Below, piece after piece: positions 2,513 to 11,267 of a stretch of DNA of 64,000 nucleotides. This stretch comes from Candidatus Bathyarchaeota archaeon (GTDB lineage: Archaea; Thermoproteota; Bathyarchaeia; Bathyarchaeales; Bathycorpusculaceae). The stretch lies in the NCBI GenBank assembly GCA_012515445.1, contig JAAYYI010000112.1, forward strand, positions 1 through 64,000, written 5' to 3'. A program made the position numbers and the translations under genes. Under the pieces are notes generated by a model. The model was given only the letters and a program-made list of their open reading frames with translations, was not told the origin of the DNA and did no database searches. Position 1 is the stretch's first letter. Every line of letters begins with the position of its first letter.

Positions 2513-5500
2513 ATGATCACGACAATACCACTACTGTATTTCGCGTGGATGTGCCATTTCATGACTGAACAAACAGAGTTCACTCTTACTTCTTCAGCAA
2601 TGAAGCGAGTCGAAGACTGGAAATCCAGACTCATCGACCTCTCCAAAAAGAACAATCTACTCTACTTCAAAAAAGGCAAACGAGGAAACCTAACAATCAC
2701 ACAACCCGATTCACAGAAAATATTCGACACCCTTATAATTAAAAAAAGCCGGCTGGAATTCTACCTACCCCCTGAAGAGAAAAAACCTGCTAAAACTGAG
2801 ACAGAATCGCCTGAGAAACAAAAATCCAGAGGTAAAGCAAAAGCCAAAGTGAAAGAGCAACCTGAAGCTAAAGTGGCGAAAGGACCAGTCAAGGCCGCCA
2901 CAATGGAAGAGCAGCCAAAGAAGCCATCTGCAAACCAGCTTGTCTGCGGCAGCCTAAGTCGACAGGAACTCGAACGCGCCATAAAACTACTTGAACGCCG
3001 ATCACTACTCGATTACCGCGAACGCGGTGTACGCATCCTCTATGCAGCTTTCGGCACACTCAACTGGGTTGACTCAGAAACAAAAGAAGCCGTCCAGTCA
3101 CCGCTAATTCTGGTTCCGCTGGAGATAGGCAAAGAATCAATCCGCGCACCATACAGCATCGGCTTGCCACCGGTTGAAGACGAAGCTGTCCTAAACCCCG
3201 CTCTGCAGGCTAAACTAAAAAACGACTTCAGGATTGATTTGCCGCCGCTGCCTGAGGAGTGGGATGAAGCTAAACTTGCCGATTACTACACGCAAGTCGA
3301 GGCTGCTGTTGCTGAGTTGAAGTGGAAAACCGAGGCATCAACGAACCTTGGCTTGTTCAGCTTCCAGAAACTGGTCATCTACAAGGACCTTGAAGCTAAC
3401 GCGCAAATAGTTACACAAAACCCAATCGTCCGGGCTATTGCCGGATTAAAAGAAGATAACCTCATTGTTTCTGGGCTTCCAGACGAGAAAGACGTTGACA
3501 AGATTGAGCAACCCGCTAAAACCTATCAGGTACTCGACGCTGACAGCAGCCAACGCGTCTCAATCGAGTACGCCCTGCGCGGCCAGAGCTTCGTGATGAA
3601 GGGTCCGCCGGGAACAGGAAAAAGCCAAACAATCGCCAACATGGTCGCAGAATGCATAGCCAACGGTAAATCCGTGCTGTTTGTCAGTGACAAGATGGCT
3701 GCGCTCGAAGTTGTTTACAAACGCCTCAGCGAAGTGGGTTTAGCTCACTTCTGCTTAGAGTTGCACAGCAGTAAAGCTAACAAGCAGCAAGTCGTCGCCG
3801 AGTTGAAGCGCAGTTTAGACGAGAACCTTGTACCCCGCAAACTGCCATCCGCCCACGAATTCGACCGGTTAACCGAGTATCGTGATTCACTTAACGGTTA
3901 CGTGGCTGCACTGCATGGCAAACGCCAGTATCTGCAGAGAAGCGCATACGAAGTCCTAAGTATCATATCCAGCCTTGAACGTGTACCCTTCGTACCCGTC
4001 GGCTTACCCGAAGTAGGCACCCTGACACCGCAGAAGATGCGTGAACTCGAAGAGCTCGTAAGCCAACTTAGCAAAGTCTGGGCAGTTGTTGAAGAGCAGG
4101 ATTTCCCGTGGGTGGGTTACCGCGCTGACAAGTACAACCTTGAAATCCGCAGCGAACTACTCACAACCCTTGAGGCAATCAACCAGTCACTACACGATTT
4201 AGAGCTGGAAACTGAGGCTTTCTCCGCCAAACTCGGCGTTTTCCCACCGGAATCCTATGCCCGCATCCAGTGGCTACTTGACGTCAGCAAACTACTGCTT
4301 GAAAGCCCCAAGCCGGAGCAGGCATGGATGACTGACCAAACATTAGATAAACTGCTGGCTGAAGCGAAAGCTTACCTAGAAACCATGAACTGGATAAAGC
4401 AAACCCGCACAGAACTACTACAACGATACAGCCCCGCAGTTTTCGATCTGCCTTTGTCGCGCTCAGGGGAGCTGCAGCAAGCAATAACAACCTTGGGCAA
4501 AATCTCCGCCATTCCAGATATAGCAGGCGGCGAATTCCTCGCAAAACGCGAAAAATTCCTTACATTCGTTAAAAATACACAGTTAACTACGAAAAAATGG
4601 CAGGACCTCTCCCGGCAGCTTACGCCGCTGCTTGGTTTAGACACCGGCGACCTAACAATCACGCAACTCAAGCAACTCGCACGTATGGCGCTTTTGTGCT
4701 TCGCCGAGGACAAGCCAGAGCCGCAATGGTTTGACGCAAAATACCTTGAGGAGGTACAGGAAACCATCACAGATGCCCGCCAAATCTACCAGGAATACGG
4801 ACTGCTGAAAAGTAGGCTAGACCAGACCTACACGGACGAACTCTACAGCCTCGACTTAGACACATTAATCGCGAACTACAGTGGTCCCTACCAGAACGGC
4901 ATCAAGCTATTCAATAGCGACTACCGCAACGACCAGAAACGCATCGCCAAAGTCACCAACGACGGCAAAGTACCCAAAGAAGTACTCCAAGACCTCATCG
5001 ACGCCAGAAAAGTCCTAAAACTAAAAAAGAAAATCGACTCCTCAGCGGAAACTGTCCAGAATCTACTCGGCCACTACTACCACAAAAGCCGCACAGACTT
5101 CAACGGCGCAGAAAAGGCCGCGGCGATCGCCGAGGAAATCCGCAAGTTATCTTGGGCGACAAGCGTACCGGAACCACTTATTAAACTGCTAACGGCATCA
5201 GCTGCTCCTTCACCTATGATTAAGAATCTGGGTCAGGAACTCCGTGACGGCGTGGAAAAGTGGGAGAGCCAAGCGGAAGAATTCACTGCTTTGGTGCCGC
5301 AGGTTATGGTGAAATCTGAGAAGGCACTCGCTGACACAGAGCTTCTACTGGTTGAGGAGTGGGCAAACGACGTAGATCGCCTGCTAACGCCGCTGTGTAA
5401 CGTAACCAAAGACACCTTAAGCGTAGCAAAAGCCGAGCCGAATAGTTACAGCCAATTAATCGGCGACCTTCAAAACGCTGAGGAAATCCGCAAGAAAGAG

Positions 5501-8245
5501 GCACAGATAGTGGGCGAAAAAGCTCAATTAGCAGAGAAATATGGTGTCCGCTTCCAAGAGCTCCAAACCGACTGGCAAGATATCGTGTCAGTGCTGGAGT
5601 GGGTTGTTAAGGTTCAGGCTGCCTTCGGCGATATGCCCGTGCCCGAAGCGTACGCTGAACTTGCAGCAAAAGGCCCAGATGCGGCTCCTTCAAGCACAGA
5701 GTTAGTCGCTAGACGGGACGCCTCACTTAAAGTGCTAGCGGACTTTGGCAGACGCTTTGAATCTGAGATGCGTTACCAGAACCGGAAATTAACCGACTGT
5801 GAAATCAAAGCTATCGAAGAACGCATACAATCCCTCAGGGACAGGGTTGATGACTTACAGGTCTGGATAGACTACAATGACACAAAGAACCGCTTTGCTC
5901 TGCGTGGGCTTGACCCATTCTTCGCCAAGCTGGTGGAGCTCAAGCTGCCCGCAGCGGATCTGCAGCCAACATTCTGCAAAGGCGTCTACCAAGAATGGAT
6001 AAACAACCTCTACAACGAAGACCCCAAACTCGGCAGGTTCCGAAGAGAAAACCATGAACAGCTAATCGCTGACTTCAGGAAACTCGATCAGGAACTCATC
6101 GCCTTAACCTCCGGCATGGTTATAGACTCAGTGAACAGCAGAAAACCCCAAGATATCCTCATCCAAGCCGCAGACACCGAAGCAGCAGTACTCTCCAAGG
6201 AAGCCGCAAAGAAGCGGCGCCTGATGCCCATACGCACATTAATGCAGAAAATCCCCAACCTGCTCGTTAAACTTAAACCCTGCCTGCTAATGAGTCCCAT
6301 CTCAGTCAGCCAGTTCCTACCGCCCGAAGCCAAATTCGACCTGGTACTCTTCGATGAGGCATCACAGCTTGTACCCGAAGACGCAATCGGCGCGATCTAC
6401 CGCGGCAAAACAGTCGTAGTCGCAGGCGATAACAAGCAGCTGCCGCCCACATCGTTCTTCCAGAAGAGCCTGCTTGACGATAAAGACTGGGATGAACTCG
6501 CCGACGAAGACGTTGAAGTATTTGACAGCATCCTAGACGAATGCTTAGGCATCGGCTTACCTGTTAAAACGCTGAAGTGGCACTACAGAAGCAAACACGA
6601 AGACCTAATCGCGTTCTCTAACCAGCGCTTCTACGACGGCGCCATGATCACCTTCCCAGCGGCGAAGGCGCAAACAGATAGCTTAGGTGTAAAACTGGTC
6701 TACGTCGCCGACGGCGTATACGACAGAGGAGGCAAACGAGATAACCCCGTTGAAGCAGAGAAAGTCGCAGACTTAGTCTTTGAGCACTTCAAAAACTATC
6801 CAAAGAAGACGCTTGGTGTGGTGACGTTTAGCATCGCGCAGATGGATGCAGTGCAGGAAGCAATCGACCGCAGACTCGAAGCTCAGCCGGAATTCGACCG
6901 GTTCTTCAAAGAAGACCGCCTTGAAGGCTTCTTCATCAAGAACCTCGAAAACGTGCAGGGAGACGAACGCGACGTAATATTCTTCAGCGTCGGCTACGGC
7001 TACGACCAGAACAGGGGCATATCGATGAATTTCGGCCCGCTAAACAAGGCAGGCGGCGAACGCAGACTAAACGTAGCAGTCACGCGCGCAAGGGAAAAAG
7101 TGGTGCTGATCACCTCGATTAAAGGCTCAGACATTGACCCTGACGCTAAAGCACTGGGGGTACAGACGCTACGGACATACCTCGACTACGCCGAGCACAG
7201 CACAAGCACATATAAAGCAAAAGATAACCAAGGCACCTTCGACTCCGCACTCGACGAAGACGTAGCTAACGAAATCAAAAAGCTGGGCTACCAAATCACT
7301 CCCGAAGTCGGATCCAGCGGCTACAAAATCGACATAGGCATACTTGACCCCGTAAACAAGGGCCACTACCTCATAGGCGTAGAATGCGACGGCACAACAT
7401 ATCAGTCGAGCAATAGCGCACGCGACCGCGACCGTCTCCGCGAGCAGGTACTGCGCAAACTGGGCTGGCGTATCCACCGCATATGGGCACCCGCATGGGT
7501 TGCTAGACGCGACAGCGAAATCCGCCGCTTACAAGAAGCGATTGAACAGGCGCAGAAGCAGCAGATAGAGAGCGACTCACAGAAGCCAGCAACTGCCACA
7601 GTTATCGACGTGCAGAAGAACAGCTTCGGCGGTGTCGAAAAACTCGCCGTTCCCTACAAGGTTCACCCGCTTAAAGCCACATACAACCCCTACATCAAAG
7701 TCGCCAACGGCAGAACCACAGTCGACTCAAAAACCAAAAACGAGTTCCACTACCCAGAAAACCGCGAAAACCAAACAAAAATGCTCTCAGACCTAATCAC
7801 AAACGAGGGCCCAGTGCACTTCGACTACGCCGTGGAACGCTTAGTAGCAACCTGGGGCATAAAGCAGCATAACCCAAAAATTTCGCATGCAGTCAAAGAA
7901 GCACTAAACAACCTTATCCGCGAAAAGAAAGTCAACATAAAAGGCAGCTTCCTCTGGCCAGCAGGGCTAAAAGAAGTCCCTATCCGAATCCCAACACAAG
8001 GCACGCCTGAATCGAGACGTAAAGCACAGTACATTGCACCAGAAGAAGTCGAGGCAGCCATGAAGGCAGTGGCGCAGTACGCTCTTGGCATAAGCGAAGA
8101 TTCACTAATTTCAGAGACAGCAAAACTGTTCGGGCTTAACCACTCAGGCGACGACGCAAAGCAGGTTTTCAGCGAAATACTCCGCCGCCTAATAAGAGAG
8201 CGTAAACTGGTTCAGAGAGACGACGGCGTAGTAGTCGTCGCCTAA
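2513..8245 (+). CDS. Very large DUF4011-type SF1 helicase with C-terminal Vsr/MTES_1575-like nuclease domain and DUF3320-like tail; start may be internal (MTEQTEF or MKRVEDWKSRLID)
   Basis: N-term RVEDWKSRLIDLSKKNNLLYF (DUF4011-like), Walker A GPPGTGKSQTIANM, Walker B LVLFDEASQLVPEDA, GDNKQLPP, nuclease-like YKIDIGILDP...YLIGVECDGTTYQSSNSARDRDRLREQVLRKLGWRIHRIW. Confidence 0.9.
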   Translation: MITTIPLLYFAWMCHFMTEQTEFTLTSSAMKRVEDWKSRLIDLSKKNNLLYFKKGKRGNLTITQPDSQKIFDTLIIKKSRLEFYLPPEEKKPAKTETESPEKQKSRGKAKAKVKEQPEAKVAKGPVKAATMEEQPKKPSANQLVCGSLSRQELERAIKLLERRSLLDYRERGVRILYAAFGTLNWVDSETKEAVQSPLILVPLEIGKESIRAPYSIGLPPVEDEAVLNPALQAKLKNDFRIDLPPLPEEWDEAKLADYYTQVEAAVAELKWKTEASTNLGLFSFQKLVIYKDLEANAQIVTQNPIVRAIAGLKEDNLIVSGLPDEKDVDKIEQPAKTYQVLDADSSQRVSIEYALRGQSFVMKGPPGTGKSQTIANMVAECIANGKSVLFVSDKMAALEVVYKRLSEVGLAHFCLELHSSKANKQQVVAELKRSLDENLVPRKLPSAHEFDRLTEYRDSLNGYVAALHGKRQYLQRSAYEVLSIISSLERVPFVPVGLPEVGTLTPQKMRELEELVSQLSKVWAVVEEQDFPWVGYRADKYNLEIRSELLTTLEAINQSLHDLELETEAFSAKLGVFPPESYARIQWLLDVSKLLLESPKPEQAWMTDQTLDKLLAEAKAYLETMNWIKQTRTELLQRYSPAVFDLPLSRSGELQQAITTLGKISAIPDIAGGEFLAKREKFLTFVKNTQLTTKKWQDLSRQLTPLLGLDTGDLTITQLKQLARMALLCFAEDKPEPQWFDAKYLEEVQETITDARQIYQEYGLLKSRLDQTYTDELYSLDLDTLIANYSGPYQNGIKLFNSDYRNDQKRIAKVTNDGKVPKEVLQDLIDARKVLKLKKKIDSSAETVQNLLGHYYHKSRTDFNGAEKAAAIAEEIRKLSWATSVPEPLIKLLTASAAPSPMIKNLGQELRDGVEKWESQAEEFTALVPQVMVKSEKALADTELLLVEEWANDVDRLLTPLCNVTKDTLSVAKAEPNSYSQLIGDLQNAEEIRKKEAQIVGEKAQLAEKYGVRFQELQTDWQDIVSVLEWVVKVQAAFGDMPVPEAYAELAAKGPDAAPSSTELVARRDASLKVLADFGRRFESEMRYQNRKLTDCEIKAIEERIQSLRDRVDDLQVWIDYNDTKNRFALRGLDPFFAKLVELKLPAADLQPTFCKGVYQEWINNLYNEDPKLGRFRRENHEQLIADFRKLDQELIALTSGMVIDSVNSRKPQDILIQAADTEAAVLSKEAAKKRRLMPIRTLMQKIPNLLVKLKPCLLMSPISVSQFLPPEAKFDLVLFDEASQLVPEDAIGAIYRGKTVVVAGDNKQLPPTSFFQKSLLDDKDWDELADEDVEVFDSILDECLGIGLPVKTLKWHYRSKHEDLIAFSNQRFYDGAMITFPAAKAQTDSLGVKLVYVADGVYDRGGKRDNPVEAEKVADLVFEHFKNYPKKTLGVVTFSIAQMDAVQEAIDRRLEAQPEFDRFFKEDRLEGFFIKNLENVQGDERDVIFFSVGYGYDQNRGISMNFGPLNKAGGERRLNVAVTRAREKVVLITSIKGSDIDPDAKALGVQTLRTYLDYAEHSTSTYKAKDNQGTFDSALDEDVANEIKKLGYQITPEVGSSGYKIDIGILDPVNKGHYLIGVECDGTTYQSSNSARDRDRLREQVLRKLGWRIHRIWAPAWVARRDSEIRRLQEAIEQAQKQQIESDSQKPATATVIDVQKNSFGGVEKLAVPYKVHPLKATYNPYIKVANGRTTVDSKTKNEFHYPENRENQTKMLSDLITNEGPVHFDYAVERLVATWGIKQHNPKISHAVKEALNNLIREKKVNIKGSFLWPAGLKEVPIRIPTQGTPESRRKAQYIAPEEVEAAMKAVAQYALGISEDSLISETAKLFGLNHSGDDAKQVFSEILRRLIRERKLVQRDDGVVVVA

Positions 8246-8919
8246 ACTTTATCCATCTTTTTTATTAAAACCGGCAGATCAATCAGCGATGTTATGATAT
8301 AGTTGGCTCCATGAGCCTGCAACTGCTTCTGTGTAGCTAAGCCTGTGGGTATACCGACTGCTACTGCTTTAAGGTCTTTTGCACTTTGCATGTCCGCTAT
8401 GCTGTCGCCTACTATAACCGTGGTAGCGGGCTTTGCGCCCAGTGCTTTTAGCGTCAGCTCAAACTGCTCCGTATCGGGCTTAACATTCTTGACCTTATCG
8501 CGGGAGACAACAACTTGGAAGTACTCCGATATTTTGAAGCGCTGAAGGATATAGTTGACGGCGGTTTCGCTGCTGGTTGTACATAAACCGATTTTTAGCT
8601 TCATTTTCTTTAATTCTTTGAGTGCCTCGACGGCGCCGGGTTGCAGGCTGGTGAGCGCGGCGGCTTCCATCTCATGTTTCTCTGCAATCGATAGGCATTG
8701 AGCTCGGATTTCCTTAAATACCTGCGACGGCTTGCTGTTTCTGAAGAAGATTTCTGCCTCTTGCAACATCTCAAATACGCTTTCGTTAACCTTTAGCAGC
8801 GATGCGGGGACACCTGCTCTTAGGAGGTATTCTCTTACTTCGCCGCGTAGCGCTTTGTAGTCAAGGTTGAATGATGTTATTGTTCCGTCTAAATCGAATA
8901 TGACTGCTTCAGTGGCCAT
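8242..8919 (-). CDS. HAD-superfamily phosphatase (phosphoglycolate phosphatase-like)
   Basis: VIFDLDGTITSF motif I, CTTSSE motif II, VGDSIADMQSAK motif IV. Confidence 0.88.
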   Translation of the reverse strand: MATEAVIFDLDGTITSFNLDYKALRGEVREYLLRAGVPASLLKVNESVFEMLQEAEIFFRNSKPSQVFKEIRAQCLSIAEKHEMEAAALTSLQPGAVEALKELKKMKLKIGLCTTSSETAVNYILQRFKISEYFQVVVSRDKVKNVKPDTEQFELTLKALGAKPATTVIVGDSIADMQSAKDLKAVAVGIPTGLATQKQLQAHGANYIITSLIDLPVLIKKMDKV

Positions 8920-10265: not shown

Positions 10266-10502
10266 TTGAACTTGGATGAGTACAGTAAAGAGCAGCTTTG
10301 GAAGATGCTTGTTGACGCGGTTCATGGCTCTTTTATGTATGCAAGTCACAAAGCCTACGTCAGAGACTCGATTTTACCCAGCCAACCCGAGGTTTCCGCG
10401 CTTGAACTTGCAGAGCGGCTCAGTATACCGATTGCTGAAGGCATTGTTATCCTTGAAGAGTTGGCGGAAGCCAAAAAAGCCCAAGCGGCACAGCCTAAAT
10501 AG
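10266..10502 (+). CDS. Small hypothetical protein, possible HTH
   Basis: 78 aa ORF, helical composition (LALELAERLSIPIAEGIVILEELAEAKK-like), divergent from the dehydrogenase. Confidence 0.55.
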   Translation: MNLDEYSKEQLWKMLVDAVHGSFMYASHKAYVRDSILPSQPEVSALELAERLSIPIAEGIVILEELAEAKKAQAAQPK

Positions 10503-10697: not shown

Positions 10698-11267
10698 TTA
10701 TTCGACCACGTAGCGGTAAGTTACGTGTTCGCCTGCAGTCGTGCTTTTCCTTGTGATTCTAAGCACGTCGCCAGGTTGTGCGCCGATGACTTTGACTGCT
10801 GGATCGCCAGATTTGATCTGTGGCATCTGGAACGGTTTAACCTTGAATTGATCAAGCAACGCAGCCTTTTCTTTTTCAGTTAGGATTTCGTGGTATGGCA
10901 CAAGTGCATGCTCAAATATGTCAAAGACCGGGAACGATTTTGGCAGGAGTTCAACGTTCTTCTTCTTTGCGCCGAGCTTTACCGCGTGGGTGTATCGTCC
11001 TTCGGTTACGACGATTGCTCGTTCAAGGCTTTTTTCCTTCATCACCTTGTAGAGGGTGTTCATGGCTGCGATACCGACTGTTGCTTCGCCAAGGATACAC
11101 CAGACGATGGCTCTCTCTTTATCCTGTGGAATATCGATGATGTAGGCAATTGTGCCTTCGTACGGTTGCTTCTCAATTAGTTTATATTTTCTTAGTTTAA
11201 TGAGGACTTCAGCTTTCCGTTCCTCGATTGTTAATTGTTTAGTAGTACTCAAACCACAAACCCTCAA
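10698..11267 (-). CDS. rpoH: DNA-directed RNA polymerase subunit H (Rpo5/RPB5 family) with N-terminal extension resembling eukaryotic RPB5
   Basis: C-term HEILTEKEKAALLDQFKVKPFQMPQIKSGDPAVKVIGAQPGDVLRITRKSTTAGEHVTYRYVVE matches RpoH/Rpb5-C; N-term ATVGIAAMNTLYKVMKEKSLERAIVVTEG resembles the RPB5 jaw domain. Confidence 0.9.
   Translation of the reverse strand: MRVCGLSTTKQLTIEERKAEVLIKLRKYKLIEKQPYEGTIAYIIDIPQDKERAIVWCILGEATVGIAAMNTLYKVMKEKSLERAIVVTEGRYTHAVKLGAKKKNVELLPKSFPVFDIFEHALVPYHEILTEKEKAALLDQFKVKPFQMPQIKSGDPAVKVIGAQPGDVLRITRKSTTAGEHVTYRYVVE

Follow-up and report, generated by a model that had tools for sequence, protein, structure and literature searches.

A two-domain RpoH in Bathyarchaeia, with evidence that its N-terminal domain is related to the jaw of eukaryotic RPB5

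The window, i.e., the whole 64,000-nucleotide stretch of a Candidatus Bathyarchaeota contig that was analyzed, contains on its minus strand an open reading frame (ORF) at 10698..11267 that opens with TTG and encodes 189 aa. The first-pass annotation had taken this ORF as the gene, and its coordinates, strand, start codon, and N-terminal sequence were as first described, but the likely product is shorter. Judging from the sequences of related loci, the true start is most likely the later TTG at 11252-11250, which gives a 184-aa product and means that the 189-aa call begins five codons early, because this TTG was kept in 29 of 29 related loci compared, a GAGG-type ribosome-binding sequence is conserved 8 to 9 nt upstream of it in these loci, and in one relative (L007) an in-frame stop lies two codons ahead of it. 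The upstream TTG at 11267 overlaps the ribosome-binding sequence. The features of the gene are listed in Table 1.

Table 1. Features of the two-domain rpoH/rpo5 gene in the window
Feature	Position	Strand	Basis
rpoH/rpo5 gene, two-domain form, 184 aa	10698..11252	-	ORF; start kept in 29 related loci; genome's only RpoH gene
Start codon TTG	11252-11250	-	Conserved in related loci
Stop codon of rpoH/rpo5	10698-10700	-	
GAGGG, probable ribosome-binding sequence, 8 nt before the TTG	11261..11265	-	Comparison of related loci
N-terminal jaw-like domain, residues 1-107, catalytically dead Mrr/PD-(D/E)XK fold by prediction, homologous to eukaryotic RPB5-N	10932..11252	-	Profiles, models, alignments
C-terminal RpoH/RPB5 assembly domain, residues 108-184	10701..10931	-	PF01191, E = 9e-29; PRK09570.1
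V59-G60, "VG" signature common to eukaryotic RPB5 (PSVGVK)	11073..11078	-	Alignment columns; G in 59/61 archaeal long forms
T88-H-A-V91, in the columns of the eukaryotic TPSA motif for downstream-DNA contact	10980..10991	-	Alignment columns; T in 55/61 archaeal long forms

Neither mark of the short archaeal RpoH, namely a length of about 80 aa with the C-terminal domain only and a gene directly upstream of rpoB, was found here. The gene lies on contig C103 and rpoB on contig C23, in agreement with the initial remark that it is not beside rpoB/rpoA. Short genes were directly upstream of rpoB in all 25 loci, versus none of 99 long genes, with the caveat that the 99 long loci include duplicates and relatives and are not independent. 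A second, short RpoH was not found in a PF01191 search of the 2.44-Mb, 92%-complete genome, in which the window gene was the sole match. Being the only RpoH in the genome, the long Rpo5 very probably serves the polymerase; its place in the polymerase and its contacts with Rpb1 and downstream DNA are inferred, in the absence of a structure.

Other genes of the window recur near long rpoH genes. A 78-aa protein without a Pfam match (10266-10502, plus strand), convergent to rpoH, is found near the long gene in 28 other loci, including those of distant Bathyarchaeia, and a HAD-type hydrolase (8242-8919, minus strand) is found near it in about a dozen; these two form a conserved neighborhood of the long gene that replaces the rpo cluster. 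The window also encodes a 1910-aa DUF4011/AAA helicase/MTES_1575 nuclease/DUF3320 protein (2513-8245, plus strand), possibly a defense helicase-nuclease.

As first proposed, the protein ends in a canonical RpoH domain. PF01191 matched the C-terminal half with 99.5 bits against a cutoff of 23.5 (residues 115-187 of the 189-aa ORF, or 110-182 of the 184-aa product), and the NCBIfam equivalog PRK09570.1 scored 100 bits against a cutoff of 83. For the N-terminal domain, which has a net charge of +7, a single-sequence Pfam search placed Mrr_cat (PF04471; 26.7 bits, cutoff 21) and NA-iREase1 above their cutoffs and gave no match to RPB5_N (PF03871). The best archaeal PF03871 score, 23.5 bits, below the cutoff of 27, came from a Heimdall-type sequence, by which we mean the named Heimdallarchaeota locus L130 and its tree neighbors. 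We infer that the PF03871 model probably rests on eukaryote-like sequences, and its cutoff is a database threshold rather than a biological defining feature of two-domain RPB5. The Mrr-type call does not contradict homology to RPB5, because the N-terminal domain of yeast RPB5 is itself known to have a restriction-enzyme fold that is catalytically dead (PMC551604, PMC1185551).

It is hardly credible that the N-terminal domain is just a miscalled start or a read-through by chance into a normal, short RpoH. The start codon is admittedly not ATG, but it is conserved, as are the domain and its invariant residues across the order, and the domain was modeled confidently (pLDDT 93). A chance ORF or read-through was excluded, since a search of 61 related genomes gave a match in 55, in nearly every case along the whole protein.

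The suggestion that the N-terminal part resembles the RPB5 jaw was borne out by sequence profiles and by structural models. A profile of 31 archaeal N-domains with the C-domain removed, searched against 177,635 PDB sequences, gave RPB5 as its best match (E = 2.6e-5) and eukaryotic RPB5 at all of the top eight ranks, and matched no restriction or Mrr enzyme among these sequences. With an Asgard N-domain profile, the 11 best PDB matches were all RPB5 (E = 4e-9 to 6e-5), and the next chain followed at 0.002. An AlphaFold2 model of the full-length protein (pLDDT 91.7) had as its best Foldseek match the RPB5 of Pol II (8uhd_E; E = 7e-16, TM score 0.79, 200 columns), covering both domains. When the N-domain was modeled alone (pLDDT 93.2), RPB5 took Foldseek ranks 1 and 2, with MspJI and AF1548 close behind. 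At the position of yeast PSVGVKTMK, Heimdall-type sequences have PQVGVKTIR. An unrelated N-terminal fold, which would have refuted the suggestion, was not found, and the Mrr-type score fits, as RPB5-N has that fold.

The route by which this homology is reached deserves attention. In HHalign comparisons, the Bathyarchaeal N-domains aligned with Asgard N-domains at 6.5e-27 over 103 columns and the Asgard N-domains with eukaryotic ones at 8e-11, whereas the direct comparison of Bathyarchaeal and eukaryotic N-domains reached only about 3e-6 (3.3e-6) over 41 columns, no stronger than that of Bathyarchaeal N-domains with Mrr proteins (8.9e-7). Homology specifically to RPB5 therefore leans on the Asgard bridge. 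Such values, together with Pfam scores that favor Mrr_cat and NA-iREase1 over RPB5_N, Foldseek ranks that set MspJI and AF1548 near RPB5, and an approximately unbiased (AU) test on the C-domain that cannot settle a single origin, leave some room for an independent fusion, in which an Mrr-like nuclease domain native to Bathyarchaeia was attached to RpoH there and came to resemble the jaw by convergence within one fold. We regard this as improbable: besides the two links of the bridge and the N-domain profile that ranked RPB5 first and no Mrr enzyme at all, the domain order and the junction are the same as in RPB5, as are the VG signature and, in most long forms, the threonine and alanine of T-x-x-A, the VG glycine occurs in only one of four Mrr rows, and the same gene relocation accompanies the long form in both lineages. 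An independent Mrr fusion was thus seriously weighed on account of the Mrr_cat call and put aside on the strength of the Asgard bridge. The combined profile, alignment, and model evidence is strong that the N-terminal ~107 residues and the jaw of eukaryotic RPB5 are homologous, chiefly via Asgard sequences.

The N-domains meet the PF04471 profile in the case of the window protein but do not contain the catalytic (E/Q)xK of Mrr-type enzymes. The column of the catalytic lysine, counted from the VECK columns of L055 only, with those of L058 and L056 left out as misaligned, was free of lysine in all 61 archaeal and all 4 eukaryotic rows, and the acidic position was W or another nonacidic residue in nearly all rows, the two motif columns being mostly W and I/V/L/F. 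On these grounds, nuclease activity of the N-domain is very unlikely. A separate Mrr-type protein in the same genome (L054, G000:C127) also lacks the catalytic lysine (VEAIRC) and may be related to the source of the domain.

The residues of the eukaryotic DNA-contact motif were kept to different degrees. The yeast RPB5 jaw touches DNA 15 to 20 nt downstream via its TPSA loop (PMC6690254). Threonine in the TPSA column was found in 55 of the 61 archaeal long forms, including all 23 from Asgards, and the alanine of the fourth position in 50 of 61; the proline, among archaea, was confined to Asgards (11/23), and the window protein reads THAV. The VG glycine was present in 59 of 61.

RpoH bearing the N-domain is a lineage-wide feature and not a lone oddity. 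Long forms were found in every sampled family of the Bathyarchaeia order to which the window genome belongs (within the class, f1-f9) and, beyond that order, in four other families of the same class (f16, f21-f23), with short forms in f10-f15 and f17-f20. A scan of 85,488 prokaryotic species, using an alignment led by plant RPB5 (its sequence checked against PDB 7eu0_E), returned mainly Candidatus Bathyarchaeota and, in addition, long forms in Borrarchaeum, Thorarchaeota, Heimdallarchaeota, and Jordarchaeia; the copy in Sifarchaeum was interrupted by a contig end. Among 201 genomes of the Asgard phylum, many had long frames and a large block had short ones. Outside the class, none of the matches listed from 401 Thermoproteota genomes covered the N-domain, nor did any of those listed from Thermoplasmatota, and no RpoH covering the N-domain was found in 112 matched genomes of the phylum of a Thermococci locus, where two weak N-only matches lay in other, larger frames. 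The original idea of an archaeal version of a domain held to be eukaryote specific is supported and can be extended to Bathyarchaeia and many Asgards.

Several long forms depart from the common pattern. In Thorarchaeota-like L137 (genes at ~1940-2503 and 2583-3152) and several of genomes G589-G615, two long rpoH genes lie in tandem at a distance of about 640 bp, a hint of two polymerase forms or of subfunctionalized Rpb5 copies. Three Heimdall-type proteins (L130, L177, and L178; frames of 242 to 294 aa) carry a lysine/alanine-rich, histone-H1-like C-terminal tail. A second long rpoH paralog, more divergent and with 35 to 45% identity to the window protein, occurs in some Bathyarchaeia (G040:C23:48611-49141, L043; G043:C48, L037). 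In a 0.9-Mb genome of the Asgard phylum (G567), the N-terminal part of a 246-aa RpoH frame (L188) was missed by the N-domain profile and is possibly a strongly diverged jaw.

As the first-pass annotation had proposed, a phylogeny was inferred with Asgard long RpoH proteins. In the two-domain tree (195 columns, 66 rows), eukaryotes joined seven Heimdall-type Asgard sequences, including named Heimdallarchaeota, with support of 97/86, and in a tree without long branches they joined eight Asgard sequences (96/92). The closest grouping of the window protein, with L078 from a named Candidatus Bathyarchaeota (100/99), is the basis for inferring that its genome belongs to Bathyarchaeia. By the AU test, placing eukaryotes with Bathyarchaeia was not quite rejected (P = 0.077). 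These placements bear on the possibility that archaea acquired the two-domain gene from eukaryotes. The domain is established as universal in eukaryotes and is patchy in archaea, as such a transfer might predict, but diversity is much greater on the archaeal side, the eukaryotes occupy one long branch next to Heimdall-type Asgards, and the archaeal N-domains are more Mrr-like, with plant RPB5 lacking any Mrr_cat match. We therefore disfavor a eukaryotic source, to which we give very little weight, and an archaeal origin of the jaw domain before eukaryotes is likely.

How Bathyarchaeia and Asgards came to share the domain is harder to say. One archaeal origin may have been followed by horizontal exchange between the two, in which an acquired long gene, unlinked to the operon, took the place of the short gene within it. 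The patchy presence of long and short forms among the families of the class, the large Asgard block with short forms, the absence of the long form outside the class among the matches listed from the sampled Thermoproteota, the position of long genes never inside the rpo cluster, and the grouping of Bathyarchaeal long forms in one clade (90/73) all speak for such an exchange. That grouping, however, fell to 38/35 in the set without long branches, and the C-domain tree, with 76 columns, was too short to show whether a single fusion underlies all long forms (AU test, P = 0.145), and a single clade of Bathyarchaeal long and short forms was not rejected (P = 0.126). Exchange thus remains a serious possibility for which we would stop just short of an even chance, and the alternative of older common inheritance with many losses is unresolved.

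Taken together, we are confident that the window gene encodes the sole Rpo5 (RpoH) of a Bathyarchaeia RNA polymerase, a two-domain protein with the architecture of RPB5; its docking, its jaw function, and its history are inferred. In the proposed arrangement, the assembly domain would dock on Rpo1'', and the jaw would be placed at the lower, distal end of the DNA cleft, gripping the downstream duplex ~15 to 20 nt ahead of the active site through its T-x-x-A loop, as RPB5 does through its TPSA loop, and may thereby steady the downstream DNA in initiation and early elongation. Historically, an Mrr-type nuclease domain would have lost its catalytic residues and been fused ahead of RpoH once, in archaea; the departure of the rpoH gene from the rpoH-rpoB-rpoA cluster is shown by computation, and eukaryotic RPB5 would have descended from the Asgard version. 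We consider it reasonably probable that the jaw is such an archaeal invention, passed vertically from Heimdall-type Asgards to eukaryotes and present also in Bathyarchaeia, where it would form a eukaryote-like downstream-DNA jaw. The open-licence PMC literature yielded no biochemical data in support of a jaw function in any archaeon.

The RPB5 jaw is, according to the literature, the largest size difference among the subunits common to archaeal and eukaryotic RNA polymerases. The domain has been called eukaryotic or eukaryote specific (PMC2675907, PMC3906176, PMC6690254), "found only in eukarya" (PMC3906176), and its absence in archaea has been restated (PMC6690254); when the yeast N-domain was joined to Pyrococcus RpoH, it was reported to be rapidly lost (PMC3906176). 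A 2026 survey of small subunits covers Rpo6 and Rpo8 and mentions the N-domain only for the eukaryotic subunit (PMC13257274). We found no report of an archaeal Rpb5 N-domain in open-licence PMC full text, including papers on Rpb5 or Asgard polymerases, and in particular none that full-length Rpb5 is common in this lineage, which would have removed the novelty; subscription papers, preprints, and supplements were outside the scope of the search, and priority is not proven. The evidence suggests that the archaeal domain was overlooked because it is tagged as a restriction-enzyme domain and not as RPB5_N. A jaw in Asgards and Bathyarchaeia would shift the origin of the domain to before eukaryotes, with the Mrr nuclease as the parent fold, and would add a marker to the debate on Asgards and eukaryotes. 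An archaeal jaw would also make a basic role testable without nucleosomes, TFIIH, or URI.

Among known systems, the window protein can be compared with eukaryotic RPB5/RPABC1 (PF03871 plus PF01191), with which it shares the domain order, an alignment colinear to the C terminus, the full-length structural match, the restriction-enzyme-like fold of a dead nuclease, the VG signature, and the threonine of the T-x-x-A signature. It differs in its length (184 aa versus 205 to 215 aa), in a shorter stretch before the jaw sheet, in the histidine that replaces the TPSA proline, and in scoring below the Pfam RPB5_N cutoff. To the short archaeal RpoH/Rpo5 of Pyrococcus, Thermococcus, and Sulfolobus, it is similar over the last ~75 aa (best archaeal Rpo5 chain in the PDB, E = 6e-24), whereas the short form has no N-domain and lies just upstream of rpoB in the loci checked, neither of which holds for the long form. 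With Mrr-type PD-(D/E)XK nucleases (PF04471; MspJI, AspBHI, and AF1548), the archaeal N-domain shares the fold and a weak sequence similarity, but it is without the catalytic lysine in every row and is fused to RpoH. Finally, Rpo13 of Sulfolobales occupies partly the same polymerase site as the jaw (PMC2675907), but it is an unrelated helix-turn-helix protein and not a domain of Rpo5.
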